Source: Limnoglobus roseus
Lineage (GTDB): Bacteria > Planctomycetota > Planctomycetia > Gemmatales > Gemmataceae
Length of the DNA stretch: 64,000 bases
Reading direction: 5' to 3'
Assembly (NCBI RefSeq): GCF_008254045.1
Contig: NZ_CP042425.1
Coordinates: 8,694,163-8,758,162 of the forward strand
Shown here: positions 1,986-11,332 of the stretch, piece by piece
Layout: every line of letters starts with the position of its first letter
How positions within the stretch are numbered: position 1 is the first letter of the stretch
Notes under the pieces: model-generated
The model's input: only the letters and a program-made list of their open reading frames with translations
What the model was told of the DNA's origin: nothing
Databases searched by the model: none
Program-made: the position numbers and the translations under genes

Positions 1986-2218
1986 GAGTTCGTACCCGAA
2001 GCCCGTGTCGAACGCCAATTCCGGCCTCCGTATGCAACGCTCCAATGCGACCGTGTGAACCGCCCCAGTCATCGGCCACGGCCGGGGACCTCGTCCGGGG
2101 GTCGAGTGGCGGGCCCGGTCCGGCATCACCCCGTCGCGGTTCGCGTCCGGGCTCGCCGCCCAATTTTAGAATTCTTGCCACTTCCTCGCACCTCTTCGTC
2201 TCCGTTTTGCGAAGTAAG

Positions 2219-3126
2219 TAACGCGGTGTGCGAGTTTTGTCGGTGACGAGGCCGTCGAAGTCGAGCGGCGGTCGTCCGGCGGTGACGTTCAGCCAGGCCG
2301 CGATCGTGTGGCCCAAGACCTTGCGGATCACCCGGTGGCTCAGATGCCAAATGTCCCGCGCCCACGTCCGCTCGATGTGGAAGCGTCCGGCCAGTTGGCC
2401 GAACGCCGTCTCGATGATCCACCGGAACCGGCTGATCCGCCGCGACCGCCTCGGGCCCGGATCCTTCGACTTCGAGCGGAACGGGGCGACGAGTTTCACC
2501 CCTTGCTCGGCGAGTCGGGCGGCGGCCTTCGGGGACCAGTAGTTGCGGTCGCCCACGACGGCCGACCCGGGCGGCGGGCCGAGTGGATCGACCATCGCTT
2601 GGTCGGACACGTTGGCGGGAGCCAAGTCGAAGGCCACGAGGATGCCCGTCGGGGTGGCCCGGGCGTGGAACCGGAACCCGTACATGGTGTTCCGGCGGGT
2701 GTGGTCGTAGCCGAAGGCCGCGTCGCCGGCGAACCGGCGGCAGGACTTGGCCCGGCCGAAGGCACACGCGGGGACGGGCAGGCTGTCCACGATGAACACG
2801 CGATCCCAGACCGCCAGCCGCTCGGCCAAGTGGGCGTGGAGTTGCTTCTTCACGGCGAACAGGTTGGCGGCCTGGCGGGCGAAGGTGGTGCGGTGGACGC
2901 CGGCGAGGGCCGGGAACTCGGCCGCGTGGTACCGGCGGAAGTGGGCGAACAGCCCCTTGTCGTGGTCGAGACCGAGGAACTCGCCGGCGAGCTCGATGGT
3001 GATGAATTCGGGGTCCGTCATGGCCGTGTGCCGTGGCCCGCGGGACCGGAGCGGGGTGCGAACGAGTTGGCGGTACAGGTCATCGACCAAGACGAAGACG
3101 TGGAGTAGAAAGTCGTTGAGGGTCAC
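2219..3126 (-). CDS. IS982-family transposase without its own stop codon
   Basis: This is a DDE transposase of the IS982 type. Visible catalytic blocks are VFIVDSLPVPAC (first Asp), AVVGDRNYW (second Asp) and RWIIETAFGQL (Glu). The chosen start is GTG 3126, which gives the usual N-terminus LNDFLLHVFVLVDDLY. The frame enters the left inverted repeat and leaves the element inside a codon whose first two bases, TA, are the end of the IS. The next genomic base is C, giving TAC, so translation runs on into the kinase fragment to a stop at 1588. Had the target base been A or G, a stop would have formed. Confidence 0.8.
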
Positions 3127-3210
3127 GGCGGGTCCTCCGGCGGCGCGGGAGTGTGGCAACTCCACGATACCGACCCCGCCGCGGCCCCACCAAACTTGCA
3201 CACCGCGTTA
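2219..3210 (-). mobile_element. IS982-like insertion sequence, about 1 kb
   Basis: Terminal inverted repeats of 22 bp match at 20 positions: 3189-3210 on the + strand (core GCACACCGCGTTA) and the reverse complement of 2219-2240. They enclose a single transposase gene on the - strand. I see no convincing target duplication: the flanks are GAAGTAAG on the left and ACTAGGTA on the right. The left repeat overlaps the 3' end of the transposase reading frame. Loss of the duplication, together with the fused kinase fragment, suggests an old insertion or a later rearrangement. Confidence 0.75.
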
Positions 3211-3291
3211 ACTAGGTAGGGGGCCTTCTTCGCCCCCGTCAGCTCACCGGCCGCGCCGCGGAGGTTGCTGGAACACTCACTGGAGGTTCCC

Positions 3292-3498
3292 GTGCGACCC
3301 GACCTCGACCCCGCCCATTTTTCCCCGGACGATCGCTTCCGCGAACTCGCCGCCATCCTCGCCCGCGGCCTGATCCGCCTCCGCGACAAAGTCGCCCTCA
3401 CGCCCCGCCACACTTCTGCCCCGCAGATACTCCCGAAATCGAGCGATTCTTCCGTTGCAGTTCATCCCGACACGTGGCTCACTGTCCACACCGGTTAA
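3292..3498 (+). CDS. Small ORF preceding the DUF2924/recombinase module
   Basis: This is a 68-aa protein with a helical core, RFRELAAILARGLIRLRDK, and no recognised domain. From memory, planctomycete DUF2924/recombinase modules often carry such a small first gene. The GTG start at 3292 follows TGGAGG at 3281-3286 with 5 bp spacing; a TTG at 3265 is an alternative. It is followed at 42 bp by the DUF2924 gene on the same strand. The similarity is recalled and not searched. Confidence 0.5.
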   Translation: MRPDLDPAHFSPDDRFRELAAILARGLIRLRDKVALTPRHTSAPQILPKSSDSSVAVHPDTWLTVHTG

Positions 3499-3540
3499 CG
3501 GACCGGAGACGACCCCCATTCCCGCAACGAAGGAGACCCC

Positions 3541-4050
3541 ATGGACCCATACCCGACGATCGCGCAACAACTGGCCGCCCTGCCCCGGCTCACGGTGAAG
3601 GACCTGCAGCGGCGGTACGCCGAGGCGTTCGGCGACGAGACGGCCGCGCGGAACAAGGCGTGGCTCGTCAAGCGGATCGCCTGGAAGCTCCAGGCCAACG
3701 CCCACGGCGGGCTGACCGACCGCGCCCGCCAACGCGCGGCCGAGTTGGCCGCCGGGGCCGAACTCCGCACGACCATCCCGGCGAAGCGAGCGACGCCCGC
3801 GCCGGTCGCCGCCCCGGCCGAGCCCGAGGCCGCAACGCTCCCCTTCCCGGCGGACCGCCGACTACCCCCGCCGGGGTCCGTCCTCACCCGCGCGTACAAG
3901 GGCCAGACCCTCCAGGTGCGGGTGCTGACGCACGGGTTCGAGCACGCCGGCCTCGTCTACCCGTCCCTCTCCGCCGTCGCCAAGGCCGTGACCGGCAGCC
4001 ACTGCAACGGGTACCTGTTATTCCGACTCACGAACGGCGGTGACGCATGA
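3541..4050 (+). CDS. DUF2924 domain protein
   Basis: This 169-aa protein resembles the DUF2924 family, which usually lies directly before large serine recombinases in planctomycetes and proteobacterial prophage-like regions. Its biochemical role is unknown. The N-terminal half is helical (LKVKDLQRRYAEAFG-like segment, then NKAWLVKRIAWKLQ). The C-terminal half has the conserved block beginning PPPGSVLTRAYKGQ and ending with NGYLLFRL. AAGGAGA lies just upstream of the ATG. Its stop overlaps the recombinase start (ATGA at 4047-4050), so the two are translationally coupled. Confidence 0.8.
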   Translation: MDPYPTIAQQLAALPRLTVKDLQRRYAEAFGDETAARNKAWLVKRIAWKLQANAHGGLTDRARQRAAELAAGAELRTTIPAKRATPAPVAAPAEPEAATLPFPADRRLPPPGSVLTRAYKGQTLQVRVLTHGFEHAGLVYPSLSAVAKAVTGSHCNGYLLFRLTNGGDA

Positions 4051-5630
4051 CGAAGCGAGCCAAGGCCGCCGCCGACACCCGGCCCGTGGTCCGGTGCGCG
4101 ATCTACACGCGGAAGTCGAGCGAGGAAGGGCTCGAGCAGGAGTTCAACTCGCTGGACGCCCAGCGGGAGGCCGGCGAGGCGTACGTCCGCAGCCAGGCCG
4201 GCGAGGGGTGGACGTGCCTCGCGGAGAGGTACGACGACGGCGGGTTCACCGGCGGCAACACCGACCGCCCCGGCCTCCGCCGCCTCCTCCACGACATCGC
4301 CGCCGGCCGCGTCCACTGCGTCGTCGTGTACAAGGTCGACCGCCTGTCCCGGTCCCTCCTCGACTTCGCCGAGATGATGCGGACGTTCGAACAGCATCAG
4401 GTCGGGTTCGTGTCCGTCACCCAGCAGTTCAACACGGCCAGCTCCATGGGCCGGCTAGTCCTGAACGTGCTGCTGAGTTTCGCGCAGTTCGAGCGGGAGA
4501 TCGTCTCCGAACGCACCCGCGACAAGATCGCGGCCACCCGGCGGAAGGGCAAGTGGGCCGGCGGGTGGCCCGTCCTCGGGTACGACGTCGACCCGGCCGG
4601 GTTCAAACTCCGCGTCAACGACGCCGAGGCCGACCGCGTGCGGGCCGTCTACGGGCTCTACCTCGACCGCGGGTCCCTCCTCCCCGTCGTCGAGGAACTC
4701 GCGTCGCGGGGGTGGGCCAACAAGCGGTGGGAACTCCGCAAGGGCGGGTTCAAGGGCGGCGGCCCGTTCACCCGCACGTCCCTGTACGGCCTGCTCACCA
4801 ACCCCGTGTACGTCGGCAAGGTCCGGTACAAGGACGAGGTCCACGCCGGCGAGCACGCCGCGATCGTCGACCCGGCCGTGTGGCAGCGGGTCCAGGCCCA
4901 CCTGGCCGGGAACGGGCGGGGCGGCGGGTTCAGTCGCGGCGGCCCCGCCGCGTTGCTCAAGGGCGTTCTGCGGTGCACGGCGTGCGACGCCGCCATGTCG
5001 CCGACGAGCACGACCAAGGGGGCCAAGAGCTACCGGTACTACACGTGCACGGCCGCCGCCAAGAAGGGGTGGAAGACGTGCCCGGCCAAGTCCGTCCCCG
5101 CCCACTCGATCGAACAGGTCCTCCTCCGCCAGGTCCGGGCCATCGGCACCGACGCCCGCCTCCGCGGCGAGGTCCTCGCCCAGGCCCGAGCCCAAGACGA
5201 GGCCCGGACGGGGGAACTCGGGAAGGAGCAGAAGGCGTTGGAGCGCGACCTGACGGGCTGGCACGGCGAACTCCGGCACCTGTCCGGCCTCCTGCGGCCC
5301 GGCAACGGGAACGAGCCGGTCATCCGCCGCCTGGCCGAGCTCCAGGAGCGGATCGCGGCCGTCGAGGGCCGCGGCCGGGCGATCCGCGACCAGCTCGCCG
5401 TCGTCGGCCGGAACCTCATCGCCGACGACGACGCGGCGACCGCCCTGTCCGTGTTCGACCCCGTGTGGGAGGCGCTCAACCCGCGGGAGCAATCGCGGGT
5501 GGTCAACCTGCTGGTGGAGACGGTCGGGTACGACGGCGGGCGGGGGAAGGTGACCATCCGGTTCCGGTCGGCCGGCGTGCGGACGCTCGCCCGGGAACTG
5601 GCCGATAAACGCGAGGGGATGCGGGCATGA
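4047..5630 (+). CDS. Large serine recombinase
   Basis: The 527-aa protein has the layout of a large serine integrase or resolvase. A resolvase catalytic domain comes first, with CAIYTRKSSEEG carrying the nucleophilic Ser near residue 25, Arg in VVYKVDRLSRS, and RERTRDKI-like helices. The 'recombinase' DNA-binding domain follows, with TNPVYVGKVRYK. A zinc ribbon with CTACDAAM and a later YYTC...C, and a coiled region, complete it. It would integrate or excise DNA by site-specific strand exchange. It heads the accessory island and overlaps both neighbours by 4 bp, so the three genes form one operon. I could not find paired att sites. Confidence 0.9.
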   Translation: MTKRAKAAADTRPVVRCAIYTRKSSEEGLEQEFNSLDAQREAGEAYVRSQAGEGWTCLAERYDDGGFTGGNTDRPGLRRLLHDIAAGRVHCVVVYKVDRLSRSLLDFAEMMRTFEQHQVGFVSVTQQFNTASSMGRLVLNVLLSFAQFEREIVSERTRDKIAATRRKGKWAGGWPVLGYDVDPAGFKLRVNDAEADRVRAVYGLYLDRGSLLPVVEELASRGWANKRWELRKGGFKGGGPFTRTSLYGLLTNPVYVGKVRYKDEVHAGEHAAIVDPAVWQRVQAHLAGNGRGGGFSRGGPAALLKGVLRCTACDAAMSPTSTTKGAKSYRYYTCTAAAKKGWKTCPAKSVPAHSIEQVLLRQVRAIGTDARLRGEVLAQARAQDEARTGELGKEQKALERDLTGWHGELRHLSGLLRPGNGNEPVIRRLAELQERIAAVEGRGRAIRDQLAVVGRNLIADDDAATALSVFDPVWEALNPREQSRVVNLLVETVGYDGGRGKVTIRFRSAGVRTLARELADKREGMRA

Positions 5631-6050
5631 GTGAGAACGGCGTGTTGACCGTGGAGTGCGACGTGCACGTGGACCGGCGGGGGCGGGGGGGCGCGGAAGG
5701 AAGTGCTCCCGGGGCCCGACCCGCGGCGGGGCCAGCCGCCGGGCCGGGTGCCGCGGGTCGCCCGGTGGATGGCCCTCGCGATCCGGTGCGACGAACTCAT
5801 CCGCGACGGCGTGGTGGAGCGATACGCCGACCTGGCGGAGCTGGGGGATGTGTCGCGGGCCCGGGTCAGCCAGATCATGAACCTGTTGGGCCTCGCCCCG
5901 GACATCCAGGAGGCGGTGCTCCACTTGCCGCGGACGACGACCGGCCGTGACCCGATCCTCCTCCGCGACCTGCAGCCGATCGTCACCGCCCTCGACTGGG
6001 GGCGGCAGCGGAAATTGTGGCGGGCGTTGCGTTGCCGGCACGGCGGGTGA
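5627..6050 (+). pseudogene. HTH protein of the recombinase operon, frameshifted in a G7 run
   Basis: The gene starts at the ATG overlapping the recombinase stop and reads NGVLTVECDVHVDRRGRG. It then shifts frame in a run of seven G at 5685-5691. Removing one G joins this start to the downstream frame (ARKEVLPGPDPRR, then VARWMALAIRCDELI). The C-terminal part contains a helix-turn-helix-like stretch, DLAELGDVSRARVSQIMNLL, and GLAPDIQEAVLHLP, as in ParB- or sigma-like HTH domains. Full length would be about 140 aa. The shift may be a true mutation, a sequencing error in the homopolymer, or a slippage site. Confidence 0.65.
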
Positions 6051-6226
6051 CTGGGGAGCACGCGGACGCCGGTCCCGCCGTCGGCGCGGCGCGTGGCCGG
6101 GGGGGCCGCCCCCGGCGCCGCGTCCGGTTCGGGCACGGGGCGTCCGCCGGGGCGGGGCCGTTCGGGGCGGGGGTATGATCAGGTCGTGGGCCGCATCAGG
6201 TCGCGGCCGGCGGGGAGGGTGGCGTG

Positions 6227-6553
6227 ATGGTGGCGAGCGACAAGGCGGGTCTGTCCGCGCCGCGGCGGGCCCTGGTGGAATTGGTCCAGGAGCGGAACTT
6301 CGGCCGCGTCGAGCACCTCCCGGTCCGCGGCGGGGAGCCGGTCCTCGACCCGCCGCCGCGGGTCGTCCGGGAGGTCAAGCTGGGCGGGGAGAACGACCCC
6401 CGGCCGGAGCGGGCGTTGGCGAACTTCCGGCTGAAGCGGCAGTGGGTCGAGCTGTTCGAGTTGTTCGACGCGGTCGGGGACGGCACGGTCGACGTGCTCG
6501 AGTTCAAGAACGGTTTGCCGTTCAAGGCCCTCGTCGCCGACCCCGCCCGCTGA
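6227..6553 (+). CDS. Small conserved protein, function unknown
   Basis: This 108-aa protein has no catalytic motif I can name. Conserved-looking blocks are EPVLDPPPRVVREVKLGGEN and an acidic C-terminal half ending VLEFKNGLPFKALVAD. I recall similar small proteins near mobile DNA in Gemmata-type genomes, but cannot assign a function. A strong purine-rich site (GGGGAGGG at 6212-6219) precedes the ATG at 6227. A GTG at 6224 is also in frame. It ends 344 bp before the ParB-fusion gene. Confidence 0.55.
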   Translation: MVASDKAGLSAPRRALVELVQERNFGRVEHLPVRGGEPVLDPPPRVVREVKLGGENDPRPERALANFRLKRQWVELFELFDAVGDGTVDVLEFKNGLPFKALVADPAR

Positions 6554-6774
6554 CGGGTCCCGCCGACAGCGGGAAAGTCTCGCCTGGGCCGGCCGGCCGC
6601 GGCCCGCCGCTCGGACGGCCGCGGGCCGTGTTCGGCCGGGCGTCCCAAGTCGGGCGACGAATAGAGTGTGCCGCAGGCGCCCGCCGGCGGCGCCCCACAC
6701 CTCCCCGCGCGGCACCCCTCTGTTTCCGCACCCGCATCGCACACACCTCGGTCCGGTTGCGACCGCGGGCCCGC

Positions 6775-6825
6775 GGCGATAATATCGGCCCGAAAATTTT
6801 GATGGACATATTTACACTTGCGCCG
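6775..6825 (+). promoter_or_regulatory. AT-rich palindrome and likely promoter of the ParB-fusion operon
   Basis: A short AT-rich island stands out in very GC-rich DNA. It holds the perfect palindrome CGATAATATCG (6777-6787) and then AAAATTTTGATGGACATATTTACACTTG, here described by position 6792-6820. It lies 75-120 bp upstream of the first gene of the replication-type pair. Its placement suggests an operator and promoter; no transcription start can be read from sequence alone. The rest of 6554-6897 shows nothing else. Confidence 0.35.
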
Positions 6826-6897
6826 TAGCCTGTGAGCGGACTTGAACATTTTTCCACCCCACGCGCCCGGCCGGGCCGGGTCAACACCGGTGACGCC

Positions 6898-8385
6898 ATG
6901 ACCGACGAAGACGACGAAGTCGATGCGAACGATGAATGCGACGAGGGCGAAGAATCGGACGACGACGGGGGCGGGCCGGCGGCCGCGATCGTGCACTCGC
7001 TGGCCGTCGAGTGGGCCGCCCTCGAGGGCCTGACCCCGGCGGCCGTCAACGACCGGCTGTACCGGCCGGTCCGGGACGACGACCCGGGCGTCGTCGCCTT
7101 GGCCGAAGCGATGGGCCGGGACGGCGGCGTGCTCGAGCCCATCGTCGTCACTCTCGACCGGGTGGTCCTGTCCGGCCACCGCCGGCGGGCGGCCGCCCGC
7201 CTGGCCGGGTTCGACCCGGTGCCCGTCCGCGTGTACCCCATCTGGTCCGCCGACCCGGCCTTCGTCCGCCTACTCCGCACGTTCAACCAGCAGCGGGTGA
7301 AGACGTTCGACGAGCAGATCCGGGAGGCCGTCATCGACGCCGACCCGCACACCACCGCCCTCGAGGTCGAGGCGTACGAGGCCGAGCGGGACGCCACCTA
7401 CCGCCGCCGCGTGGCCGCGGCCGACATCGCCCCCATCGCCGTGACCGCGGCCCGCCGGCGGAACGACATCTCGGCGGCCAAGCGGCCGATGCTCGACGCC
7501 GTCATCCGGGTGGTCCAGGAGAACCGGGAGTACTGGCCGCTGTCCAACCGCCAGGTGCACTACCGGCTGCTCAACGACCCGCCGCTCAAGCACGCCCGCA
7601 AGCCGGGCAGCCGGTATCGCAACGACCTGGCGTCGTACAAGGACCTGTGCGACGTGCTGACCCGGGCCCGGCTGGCCGGGGTGGTGCCGTTCGACGCCAT
7701 CTCGGACACCACCCGGCCGAGCACCCAGTGGCGGAGCTGGGGCCACGCCCAGGCGTTCGTCCGGGAGGCGACGGCGAAGCTCCTGAGCGGGTACGCCCGG
7801 GACCCCCTTCAGTCCCAGCCGGCGTACGTCGAGGTGCTGGTCGAGAAGCTGACGGCCGAGACGCCGGTCGAGCGGGCGGCCGCCCCGTACCTGGTGCCGT
7901 ACTGCGTCGGCCGCGGGTACCCGTCGCTGGACGCCCGGTACCAGCTGGCCGAGCGGTTCCGGGCGTCCGGCAAGCGGCGGTTCGTGCTGCTGGTGCTCAG
8001 CGACTTCGACCCGGAGGGGGAGAACATCGCGGAGACGCTGTGCGCGTCCCTGCGGGACGAGTTCGACGTGCCCGACATCACCCCGTTCAAGGTGGCCCTG
8101 ACGGAGGACCAGGTCGGGCGATTCGGCCTGGTGCCGAGCATGGAGGTGAAGCGGTCGTCGAGCCGGGCCAAGGGTTTCGTCGGCAAGCACGGCAGCCAGG
8201 TGTACGAGCTGGAGGCCCTGCCGCCGGCCCGGCTGCAGCAGCTGGTGACGGACGCCATCGAGTCGGTGCTCGACCTCGGGGCGTACCGCCGGGAGCGGGC
8301 GGAGGAGGCCCGCGAACTCCAGGAGTTGGTGGCCCGCCGGCGGGTGCTGCTCGACGCCGTCGGCGGCCTGGGGGGCGGGGCGTGA
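6898..8385 (+). CDS. ParB-domain protein fused to a Spo11/topoisomerase VI-A-like core
   Basis: This 495-aa protein starts at ATG 6898, just before an acidic tract of about 25 residues. Residues about 30-125 are a ParB/Srx-like domain with LSGHRRRAAARLAG at 91-104. Residues about 200-285 look like a winged helix, PLSNRQVHYRLL, followed by LTRARLAGVVPFDAISDTTR. Tyr222 sits where Spo11/TopoVI-A enzymes have the catalytic Tyr (R-x-x-x-Y pattern). Residues about 308-400 resemble a Toprim fold: Glu at 312 or 316 in VEVLVEKL and the DxD of LSDFDPEGEN at 369-371. The C-terminus is a charged helix. The gene overlaps the primase gene by 4 bp. The ParB call is firm; the Spo11-like call is inference from motif order. 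Confidence 0.75.
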   Translation: MTDEDDEVDANDECDEGEESDDDGGGPAAAIVHSLAVEWAALEGLTPAAVNDRLYRPVRDDDPGVVALAEAMGRDGGVLEPIVVTLDRVVLSGHRRRAAARLAGFDPVPVRVYPIWSADPAFVRLLRTFNQQRVKTFDEQIREAVIDADPHTTALEVEAYEAERDATYRRRVAAADIAPIAVTAARRRNDISAAKRPMLDAVIRVVQENREYWPLSNRQVHYRLLNDPPLKHARKPGSRYRNDLASYKDLCDVLTRARLAGVVPFDAISDTTRPSTQWRSWGHAQAFVREATAKLLSGYARDPLQSQPAYVEVLVEKLTAETPVERAAAPYLVPYCVGRGYPSLDARYQLAERFRASGKRRFVLLVLSDFDPEGENIAETLCASLRDEFDVPDITPFKVALTEDQVGRFGLVPSMEVKRSSSRAKGFVGKHGSQVYELEALPPARLQQLVTDAIESVLDLGAYRRERAEEARELQELVARRRVLLDAVGGLGGGA

Positions 8386-9623
8386 CGGCGGCCCTGACGA
8401 CCAGGGACTACTTGCAGGCCGCCCTGTGGTACCGGTCGTGGGGGTGGGCGTGCCTGCCGGTGTCGCACGCCGTCGCGGACAAGCGGCCGACGGTCCGGTG
8501 GAAGGCCCTCCAGCGGCGGAAGCCGACGGACCGGGAGCTCGGCCGCCTGTTCGCCGTCCGGCCGGACCGGGTGACCGGGCTGGCGGTGCTGCTCGGGCGG
8601 GCGTCCGGCGGGCCGCCGGCCGGGTGCCTGGCGTGCCGGGACTTCGACGCGGCGGCGGCGTACTTCCGGTGGGCGAGCCTCCGGCCGCGGCTGGCCGCCG
8701 CCCTGCCCACGGTCCGGACGCGGCGGGGGTTCCACGTGTACTGCTACCTGCCGGCCGAGGTGTTCGTCGACTTCGGGCCGGGGGACGGGGACCTGCGGTG
8801 CGTCGCGACGCGGTACGCCGTGCTCCCGCCGTCGGCCCACCCGTCGGGCGTGCGGTACGCCTGGGTGCGGGGCGACCCGGCCCGCCCGGACTTCCCGCTC
8901 CTGACCGTCGAGGCGACCGGTTTCCTGGCCGACCGGGCGGACAAGGCGCGGTCGCCCGGTCGGCCGCGCACAGCCCTCACACCTGCGGCCCAACCCGCCC
9001 GGAAGGCGGATAAAGACAAAGATCTCTTGTGTCCGCCCCGGGGCGTTTCGGACGCGGCCGGCGGGTCGCCCGGACCGGACGCGCGGTGGGCGTCGCTGCC
9101 GGCCGCGGAACGGGAGGCGGTCCTCAAGACGCTGCCGCGGCGGGCCGGAGAACGGCACCGCCGCTTGTTCGAGCTCGCCCGCCGGCTGGCCGACGTGCGG
9201 CCGGGCGTCCCGGCGGGCCACTGGGCTGGCGTCGTGCGGGCGTGGTGGCGGCGGGCGGAGCCGGTCGTCCGGACGAAGGACTGGGCGGTGACGTGGGCGG
9301 ACTTCCGGGCCGCGTGGGGGCGGGTTCGCACGCCGGCGAGCCGGTCCCCGCCGGCGGTCGCGTTGGCGGCGGCCCGTGGGGCGGACGTGCCCCCGCGGGA
9401 CCGACTCCGACTGGCTTGCCGTTCGCTGGCCGGCCTGACGGGCGGGACGTTCTACCTGTCGGCCCGTGGGGCGGCGGCGGCGACCGGGCTGGGAAAGACG
9501 CGGGCGGCCGAACTCTTGGCCGGACTCGTGGCGGCCGGCGAACTGATCGTCCGCGTGCCGGGCCGGCGGTCGGCGTCCGCCCGGCTGGCCACCCGGTACG
9601 CCCTCGGGTCGCTCGGCGACTGA
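8382..9623 (+). CDS. Primase-polymerase (Prim-Pol domain)
   Basis: This 413-aa protein starts at GTG 8382 inside the preceding stop (GTGA). The N-terminal 165 residues match the bifunctional primase/polymerase domain of plasmids and phages. They contain YRSWGWACLPVSH, GLAVLLG at 66-72, the acidic pair in CRDFD (87 and 89), RRGFHVY at 114-120 with the motif His, and YAVLPPSAHPSGVRYAW. The C-terminal part holds a helical region and a winged-helix-like end (LSARGAAAATGLGKTRAAELL). It would prime DNA replication. Its coupling to the ParB fusion and the palindromes just downstream suggest a replication module. Confidence 0.85.
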   Translation: MTAALTTRDYLQAALWYRSWGWACLPVSHAVADKRPTVRWKALQRRKPTDRELGRLFAVRPDRVTGLAVLLGRASGGPPAGCLACRDFDAAAAYFRWASLRPRLAAALPTVRTRRGFHVYCYLPAEVFVDFGPGDGDLRCVATRYAVLPPSAHPSGVRYAWVRGDPARPDFPLLTVEATGFLADRADKARSPGRPRTALTPAAQPARKADKDKDLLCPPRGVSDAAGGSPGPDARWASLPAAEREAVLKTLPRRAGERHRRLFELARRLADVRPGVPAGHWAGVVRAWWRRAEPVVRTKDWAVTWADFRAAWGRVRTPASRSPPAVALAAARGADVPPRDRLRLACRSLAGLTGGTFYLSARGAAAATGLGKTRAAELLAGLVAAGELIVRVPGRRSASARLATRYALGSLGD

Positions 9624-9630
9624 AGGGCCT

Positions 9631-9773
9631 CGAATCCCGAACATGTCCGGGATTCGGGCAGACGCGGGTCGCACGCCGAAAACCCGATCATGTCCGGGTT
9701 TCAGGTGAGGCGCCGGAAGCGAACAGCCGGGGGGCTCACGCGGGAGAACCCGATCATGTCCGGGTTCTCCCGC
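9631..9773. repeat. Three palindromes with one core, candidate iterons or ParB/primase binding sites
   Basis: Site 1 (9631-9656) has arms CGAATCCCG and CGGGATTCG around AACATGTC. Site 2 (9680-9701) has arms AAACCCG and CGGGTTT around ATCATGTC. Site 3 (9740-9773) has 13-bp arms GCGGGAGAACCCG and CGGGTTCTCCCGC around ATCATGTC. All share CCCGA(A/T)CATGTCCGGG. Centres are 47 and 66 bp apart. They begin 8 bp after the primase stop, in a 530-bp stretch without a gene. The outer arms differ in sequence yet stay complementary, which argues for selection on the inverted symmetry. One site may also act as a terminator. I saw no further copy in the window. Confidence 0.75.
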
Positions 9774-10153
9774 CGGCCTTGATTTCGCAGCCGACTGGCC
9801 CGGTCGTTTGCGCGAAAGAGCGGTCGCCGTGAACACCACGAGCGGCGACCGTGGCCTCCGCTAGCCGGCATTCGTCGGCCGCCCGGCCCGCACGATTTCA
9901 CGGGTCCTTCCTGGCGACTTTCAGTGTTGCCCCCACGCGGAAAGGTCCAACTGTTAGACAGACTTTATTTCTTCAGCCCCCGCCCCCAACCGCCGACACG
10001 TTCGCCAGTTGTGCGGTCATGTGGCCTGTGGTAGAATCCCTTCAGCAACTCGCCGCACGTCCTTGTGGGAGGACGGGGTGGCGGGCCGGCGGCCAAGCAC
10101 CCGGCATCACGGCCGGGCCGAACGAACGTCCCTGTTCCTTCGAGGCCCCGCCG

Positions 10154-11332
10154 ATGCTCGTCCAGATGCGCGACATCTCCTCCATCACCCCATACGAACA
10201 CAACCCCCGGATCAACGCCGCCGCCGTCGACCCCGTCGCCGAGTCCATCGCCACGTTCGGGTGGCAGCAGCCGCTCGTTTTGGACGCCCACGGCGTCATC
10301 GTCGTCGGCCACACGCGGTACAAGGCCGCCCTCAAGCTCGGCCTGACCGTCGTGCCCGTGCACGTCGCCGCCGATCTGACGCCGGCCCAGGCCCGGGCGT
10401 ACCGCCTGGCCGACAACCGCACCGCCGCCATCGCCACGTGGGACGACGGCAAACTGGTGGCCGAGCTGCTCGCCCTCCAGGGCACCGACGTCGACCTCGC
10501 GTCCATCGGGTTCACGGCCGACGAACTGGCCGACCTGCTGAAAGCCGACGAGCCCGCACATCCCGGCGACCCGGACGCCGTCCCCGATCCGCCGGCCGAA
10601 CCCGTCACCCGCCCGGGCGACCTGTGGCTCCTCGGCCGCCACCGCCTCCTGTGCGGCGACGCCACCAACCCCGCCGACCTGGCGAAGGTCCTCGATGGCG
10701 CCCCGGCCGACCTGCTCCTCACCGACCCGCCGTACAACGTCGCCTACGAGGGGAAGACGGCCGACCGGCTGACCATCGCCAACGACGCCATGGCCGGGGA
10801 CGACTACCGCCGGTTCCTCGCCCGCGCCCTGGCCGCGGCCAAGGGCGTCCTCCGCCCGGGGGCGGGATTCTACCTGTGGCACGCCGACCTCGAGGGGCTC
10901 ACGGTGCGAACCGCCTGTGTCGACGCCGGCCTCCATGTCCGCCAGTGCCTCGTCTGGGTCAAGTCGGCGTTCGCCCTCGGCCGGTTCGACTACCACTGGC
11001 GGCACGAGCCGTGCCTGTACGGGTGGGCCGACGGGGCCGCCCACACCTGGCTCTCCGACCGCGCCCAGACGACCGTCCTCGAATTCGACCGCCCCGCCAA
11101 GAACGACGTCCACCCGACCATGAAGCCCGTCGGCCTGTTCGCCTACCTGATCGGCAACTCGTGCCACGCGGGCGGCGTCGTCCTCGACCCGTTCGCCGGG
11201 TCCGGGACCACCCTCGTCGCGAGTGAACACACGGGACGAACGGCCGCCCTCGTCGAACTCGACCCGCGGTACTGCGACGTCATCTGCACCAGGTGGCGCG
11301 TGATGACCGGAAAGGAGGCCGTCCGTGGGTAA
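10154..11332 (+). CDS. ParB-domain DNA methyltransferase (N6-adenine/N4-cytosine type)
   Basis: This 392-aa protein starts at ATG 10154. Residues 1-95 are a ParB-like domain (EHNPRIN, VVGHTRYKAALKLG, RLADNRTA). After a Pro-rich linker comes GRHRLLCGDAT and a methyltransferase with the catalytic DPPY at 191-194 and, near the C-terminus, the SAM-binding LDPFAGSGTTLVA. Motif order (DPPY before FAGSGTT) is the beta class. Such fusions are common in phages and integrated elements, where they modify element or host DNA without a paired restriction enzyme. No restriction gene is adjacent. AAAGGAGG near its 3' end serves the next gene, which overlaps it. Confidence 0.88.
   Translation: MLVQMRDISSITPYEHNPRINAAAVDPVAESIATFGWQQPLVLDAHGVIVVGHTRYKAALKLGLTVVPVHVAADLTPAQARAYRLADNRTAAIATWDDGKLVAELLALQGTDVDLASIGFTADELADLLKADEPAHPGDPDAVPDPPAEPVTRPGDLWLLGRHRLLCGDATNPADLAKVLDGAPADLLLTDPPYNVAYEGKTADRLTIANDAMAGDDYRRFLARALAAAKGVLRPGAGFYLWHADLEGLTVRTACVDAGLHVRQCLVWVKSAFALGRFDYHWRHEPCLYGWADGAAHTWLSDRAQTTVLEFDRPAKNDVHPTMKPVGLFAYLIGNSCHAGGVVLDPFAGSGTTLVASEHTGRTAALVELDPRYCDVICTRWRVMTGKEAVRG

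Follow-up and report, generated by a model that had tools for sequence, protein, structure and literature searches.

The DNA analysed here, referred to as the window, is a stretch of 64,000 nucleotides from the planctomycete Limnoglobus roseus (contig NZ_CP042425.1, positions 8,694,163 to 8,758,162 of the forward strand). From a group of its genes encoding a DUF2924 protein, a serine recombinase, a ParB-topoisomerase fusion and a Prim-Pol primase we infer an integrative element that would be excised and replicated. The genes and the repeated block considered below are as follows:

3541 to 4050, + strand: DUF2924 protein, adjoining the recombinase (PF11149, E 7e-38)
4047 to 5630, + strand: large serine recombinase, 527 aa (PF00239, PF07508, PF13408)
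At 6224: small protein of unknown function, between the recombinase and the ParB fusion
6832 to 8385, + strand: ParB-fold domain (approximately residues 56-160) fused to a DNA-topoisomerase-like C-terminus (phrog and profile matches)
8382 to 9623, + strand: Prim-Pol primase, 413 aa (Pfam PF09250, E 7e-12)
9899 to 9997, + strand: repeated block in front of the methylase gene, present at six more genomic sites, there without hairpins
10154 to 11332, + strand: ParB_N/DNA methylase protein (PF01555, E 5e-21; phrog_498)

The best NCBIfam match of the serine recombinase is CcrB, with a score far under the CcrB cut-off, and the methylase protein is common to sibling elements of the same genome (73-91% identical). 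The ParB-topoisomerase gene overlaps the start of the Prim-Pol gene. The N-terminus of its product matches ParB family structures in a profile search (ParB NTP-binding fold) and the protein also matches ParB-like phrogs; residues 262-498 match phrog_6247 'DNA topoisomerase' (E 2.5e-36), an SDFDPEG motif is present at 390, and the C-terminal half has matches in 65 phage records. A ParB-type helix-turn-helix (HTH) was not found in the fusion in Pfam and phrog searches, and no ParA was seen among nine scanned window proteins. Four more genomes of the phylum encode near full-length relatives of the fusion (loci L097, L098, L099 and L102). A profile of five Prim-Pol homologues matches the pRN1 ORF904 structures 1rni and 3m1m (E 1e-4 and 2.5e-4, respectively), and the best plasmid relatives are the primases of archaeal pIT3 and pTI1. 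Residues D87/D89 and H118 are invariant, and the C-terminus from about residue 359 resembles an HTH segment when the sequence is read by eye. The 413-aa protein matched only Prim-Pol/primase families and no helicase domain, SF3 included, and none of the element's genes was recognised as coding for a helicase. Single-sequence structure predictions of the ParB fusion and Prim-Pol gave mean pLDDT values of 43 and 39.

Between the primase stop codon (9621-9623) and the methylase start (10154) there are three hairpins in one orientation:

9631 to 9656, + strand: hairpin 1, 9-bp stem CGAATCCCG/CGGGATTCG, loop AACATGTC
9680 to 9701, + strand: hairpin 2, 7-bp stem AAACCCG/CGGGTTT, loop ATCATGTC
9740 to 9773, + strand: hairpin 3, 13-bp stem GCGGGAGAACCCG/CGGGTTCTCCCGC, loop ATCATGTC

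All three stems are perfect and close the same type of 8-nt loop, A(A/T)CATGTC. Only the loop and the inner CCCG/CGGG pairs are common to the three hairpins; the outer arms are unlike, yet they pair. Past the common 16-bp core the arms of hairpins 1, 2 and 3 gain 5, 3 and 9 further pairs, extensions that have probabilities of 0.002, 0.025 and 0.0001, respectively, at random places in the window. All three retain the same A/C mismatch beside the CCCG/CGGG clamp and hence share their orientation. An initial annotation made from the sequence alone had reported three inverted repeats of 26, 22 and 34 bp with a common centre, right behind the primase gene, whose outer arms differ and stay complementary; the sizes and coordinates are correct, the primase stop ends at 9623 with the first arm beginning 7 bp past it (at 9631), and the perfect stems bear out the complementarity. 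Its term "palindromes" needs amendment, as the inverted arms are real but they enclose a loop that is not self-complementary, i.e., these are hairpins and not true palindromes.

When the whole window was shuffled 40 times by a second-order Markov model, the largest same-loop cluster (stem of at least 7, loop of 8, within 200 bp) had one member, versus three observed. Folding of 9624-9800 gave z values of -5.25 (DNA, + strand), -5.02 (DNA, - strand) and -4.66 (RNA, + strand), none of 200 shuffles being equally stable in any of the three cases, and four other stretches of the window used as controls ranged from -1.75 to +0.12. The GC content of the hairpin region is 67-68%; the hairpins do not flank the GC minimum, which lies about 130 bp to their right (AT-richest stretch 9900-10049, part of the block that also occurs without hairpins).

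The stability of the RNA fold, the start of the hairpins so close behind the stop codon, and a conserved loop on variable perfect stems, which is a common pattern of RNA motifs, would all suit hairpins at the 3' end of the ParB-fusion/primase transcript acting as a terminator or as a processing, stability or protein-binding element. Such a role is unlikely: a T-tract is absent, an intrinsic terminator scan of 9400-10250 (GC-rich stem followed by a T run) gave no hit and the accompanying promoter scan of the hairpin region none, the region has no match in Rfam, three copies of one loop are more than termination requires, and the sibling clusters described below, with both orientations and unrelated motifs, resemble DNA repeats.

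The exact core occurs five times in the 9.38-Mb single-contig genome, three times in the window and twice elsewhere (at 8628258 and 8628324), and all five copies are located behind the two copies of the Prim-Pol primase gene. Four more sites with one mismatch are isolated, and the inner 12-mer occurs 12 more times, without comparable stems as judged by eye. The initial annotation predicted that the core would always lie next to ParB-fusion/primase genes and named many copies dispersed through the genome as its refutation. Within this genome the prediction holds for each exact core, and since these are confined to the two element copies the refutation fails; a dispersed REP-like repeat family is ruled out on the same count. 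The prediction did not extend to homologous genes in other genomes (148 relatives; 12 homologue loci): the exact core is found in three of 149 genomes (this one and its 148 relatives), and the other two hold one copy each, alone. A pair pattern search of viral contigs for related arrays returned 14 stretches, in none of which matching stems could be seen by eye, and a stricter pattern applied to GTDB contigs returned three, none of them a related array. Two of these, both from a single Pseudomonadales MAG, carry another kind of hairpin repeat with GTTCGGxC arms in a different register; the third, from a Verrucomicrobia MAG, is without such arms. Positions 9600-10000 had no BLAST match among phages and plasmids, and no relative of the Prim-Pol primase was confirmed in viral contigs.

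The second copy of the element (locus L009), 75 kb away, matches window 2171-9965 at 98% identity. Its hairpin 1 has two extra bases, so that the loop reads AACATATGTC. The two copies have no differences over 6117-9608 and then three within 54 bp (9609-9662), over or beside hairpin 1; this patch after 3.5 kb of identity is a possible hot spot of mutation or conversion. Similarity ends at about window 9965; 4.8 kb of other genes follow (L009 10541 to 15359) before it returns at 9986, and this break suggests that the right end of the element may be near TTAGACAGACTT.

An autoregulatory operator of the ParB-fusion/primase operon, also proposed in the initial annotation, is poorly supported, as an operator is expected upstream of the operon, yet the hairpins are behind its last gene. 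An operator of the following gene fits no better, since the promoter-proximal block 9899-9997 is found without hairpins in the six other places.

These six places (L044-L049) allow a comparison among sibling elements. A methylase-type gene follows the block in four of them (L045-L048), and the recombinase is kept in four (L044, L047, L048 and L049; 91-94% identical over the matched part), where the replication genes are other than that of the window. The replication gene of L048 encodes a Prim-Pol with an AAA_25 domain, and L044 and L047 encode a large protein whose second half matches phage DNA polymerase/primase families (tested for L044); in L045 and L046 the methylase is present, and neither a recombinase nor a replication gene was recognised. 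In a motif-free scan, each 300-bp stretch of the eight loci was scored for repeated 9-mers on either strand. Six of the loci have a replication gene, and in five of these (window, L009, L044, L047 and L048; the window ties with a low-complexity stretch) the top or joint-top cluster was at the 3' end of that gene; in L049 this position ranked third. No comparable cluster was detected in L045 and L046. The repeat motif varies by type of replication gene: GAAACCTGC is present behind the replication gene in seven copies in L044 and ten in L047, CAACCGG in 11 copies within the 3' end of the Prim-Pol/AAA_25 gene (L048 11500-11900), and the AWCATGTC hairpins accompany the Prim-Pol/ParB fusion pair. 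Since siblings with another type of replication gene also have another motif, the gene and its neighbouring repeat cluster appear to be swapped together as a unit.

In L044 (10203-10480) and L047 (minus strand, 7520-7240) the GAAACCTGC repeats behind the primase-like gene are in both orientations, with an alternating purine-pyrimidine run of 18 nt (L044) or 16 nt (L047) between them, which might form Z-DNA; runs of this kind were reached by 0.2% of 500 base shuffles.

The sibling loci bear on three other explanations. If the hairpins were a binding site of the ParB-topoisomerase fusion, they would serve partition and spreading (parS-like) or be the place of action of a type IIB-like topoisomerase, and not priming. 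The overlap of the fusion and primase genes, the match of the N-terminus to ParB family structures, the double-stranded core as a near-dyad (read on the opposite strand, it differs from itself at 2-3 positions), and the presence of exact cores only beside the ParB-fusion/Prim-Pol gene pair would be in keeping with such a site. Yet neither a ParB HTH nor ParA was found in the window proteins scanned, L044, L047 and L048 have clusters at their replication gene 3' ends although they lack the fusion, and a double-stranded dyad has no need of outer arms that are both differing and complementary. We therefore consider a fusion-binding site possible, though not likely.

Less probable still, indeed very unlikely, is a site of the serine recombinase, either res-like with three subsites or an attachment site. 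Tn3-type res sites contain three unequal dyads, which the window dyads, spanning 143 bp, resemble, and an end of the element may be near 9960, where the two copies cease to match. However, the recombinase is of the large type beside DUF2924 and is encoded 4 kb away. Crossover and accessory subsites are usually unlike each other, whereas the three cores here are alike. Moreover, siblings with nearly the same recombinase have no core: the recombinases of L044, L047 and L048 are 91-93% identical over the matched part, and the core is restricted to the two copies of the window element. Finally, the hairpins might be a functionless small palindromic repeat, duplicated locally, as could be argued from relatives without the cluster and from the unlikeness of hairpin 1 between the two element copies. 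Perfect stems with differing arms, and comparable clusters at the same place in siblings, make this highly improbable.

The closest homologues yielded contrary results. No same-loop cluster was found within 500 bp downstream of the closest Prim-Pol homologues (12 loci, 11 genes; the weakest homologues L025-L028, L032 and L033 were left out of this comparison), and within the collections searched the hairpins thus belong to this element alone. In the motif-free scan, none of seven close homologue loci (L100-L106) had its top cluster at the gene 3' end; with L097-L099 included, the count was two of ten loci, some of them on short contigs. The local GC skew flips from plus to minus at the hairpin cluster, the opposite of what is expected for a bidirectional origin, and the switch may be a property of the genes. 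A single 13-bp hairpin with a 6-nt loop is present upstream of Prim-Pol in L101 (4456-4487, 58 bp upstream) and L102 (3235-3266, 50 bp upstream), and these may be related to the window hairpins.

In the wider family, we analysed 20 of 30 loci with Prim-Pol, all from other family genomes and picked before scoring for having enough downstream sequence; the 30 loci are part of a longer match list with many more matches without loci. The best repeat cluster was at the Prim-Pol 3' end in eight of the 20 loci, versus approximately 1.5 expected, and away from it in the remaining 12. Repeat excess at the 20 Prim-Pol ends was higher than at 89 other gene ends of the same stretches (medians 12.4 vs 3.3; Mann-Whitney p 1.3e-5). 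The difference in folding was weaker than that in repeats (z below -4 at 10 of 20 Prim-Pol ends vs 19 of 89 other ends, p 0.003). Ten of 12 repeat clusters that were folded had z below -3.7, values that illustrate and do not test, as the 12 had been picked as clusters. In L166, L158, L174 and L165 the cluster and the coding end of Prim-Pol overlap, and the repeats there may thus be protein repeats; the origin of phage lambda is likewise found within the coding part of a gene, O.

L099, from the same class, encodes a ParB fusion 39% identical to that of the window and a Prim-Pol/D5 gene ending at 4944. A stem-loop of 121 nt (4992-5112) begins 48 bp behind this gene, with 34-nt arms that are 85% complementary and a 53-nt loop. 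TGTCGCGACA is present in both of its arms, and the loop contains a 36-nt alternating purine-pyrimidine run. In three Prim-Pol loci from the same genus or genome a short hairpin of the CCCCCT/AGGGGG type lies amid two repeat groups (L048 11711-11728, L158 5109-5127 and, in reverse, L166 5087-5107) as a central element common to otherwise unlike clusters.

We propose that the hairpin cluster is probably a cis-acting replication origin, or a primase-loading or priming site, of the integrative element. The proposal is built on the hairpin anatomy, the confinement of the core to the element, its adjacency to Prim-Pol, and a cluster that changes with the replication gene. The initial annotation had offered an origin, a partition site or an operator; the first is well supported by position and by sibling comparison, and support for the second is weak, for the third poor. 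We infer that the element excises and replicates, and that its hairpins are extruded, bound and used for priming. After excision, Prim-Pol would recognise the AWCATGTC loop and the CCCG/CGGG clamp behind its own gene by way of its C-terminal HTH-like segment and perhaps together with the ParB-topoisomerase fusion. The extruded hairpins would open the duplex and offer single-stranded loops on which Prim-Pol could start primers, and a host helicase and polymerase would carry on from there. A constant loop and orientation combined with variable stems lead us to favour recognition of the extruded hairpin over that of plain double-stranded iterons. More speculatively, and we think improbably, the two proteins might form a helicase-free initiator in which the fusion recognises or cleaves the extruded hairpins and Prim-Pol primes on the loop; no initiation of that kind is described for the pRN1, PICI and RSF1010 origins in the portions of the literature available to us.

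The repeats at the origins of primase-driven mobile elements vary from one element to the next, which makes such origins difficult to spot. Here, related elements of one genome in which replication gene and repeat cluster change together provide candidate gene/origin pairs, and archaeal plasmids, phage satellites and planctomycete elements come under one positional rule, i.e., to check the 3' end of Prim-Pol. Should the hairpins prove to be the origin, this would be a case in which several small hairpins, and not one large stem-loop, serve a short Prim-Pol for which no helicase is recognised. No description of the three-hairpin arrangement, or of a ParB-topoisomerase fusion at an origin, was found in the open-access literature: topoisomerase and primase are absent from the main text of a survey of ParB folds (PMC12704722), and Planctomycet and ParB do not occur in an account of novel primase families (PMC5862659).

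Analogy with pRN1, PICI and RSF1010 makes an origin or primase-loading site the likeliest role of the hairpins. In two studies of pRN1 (PMC4234260, PMC3869888), a stem-loop of about 100 nt, 54 bp past the Prim-Pol gene orf904, is required for replication; their authors disagree on the replication mode, and one of them points to a comparable stem-loop in phage BIP-1, 3' of its replication protein. The pRN1 type (Sulfolobales) and the window element share the order of a Prim-Pol gene followed by stem-loop DNA outside genes, and the primase profile matches ORF904. In contrast to the single large stem-loop of pRN1 there are three hairpins of 22-34 bp over 143 bp here, and ORF904 includes an SF3 helicase, whereas here none is recognised and a ParB-topoisomerase partner is present. 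The L099 stem-loop, 48 bp behind its gene, is strikingly like the pRN1 layout. Phage-inducible chromosomal islands (PICI) have a pri-rep-ori module in which the origin is directly 3' of the replication initiation gene (PMC6092414), and the window element is likewise integrative with origin-like repeats directly 3' of its replication gene; PICI have two iteron sets around an AT-rich region, unlike the three GC-rich hairpins here, and no helper link was seen for the window element. In RSF1010, according to a review (PMC4434180), the hairpin at ssiA is recognised by the primase RepB', which reads a 5' tail and the first stem pair. The ssiA/ssiB hairpins thus serve as primase recognition sites, as is proposed for binding here, but there is one ssi per strand and not three same-orientation hairpins with a conserved loop. 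ParB-parS systems also place a ParB-fold protein next to dyad sites, and they differ in that no ParA or ParB HTH was found here and the arms are variable. An origin behind the replication gene is thus known from elsewhere, and the arrangement of three hairpins with the same loop appears to be new.
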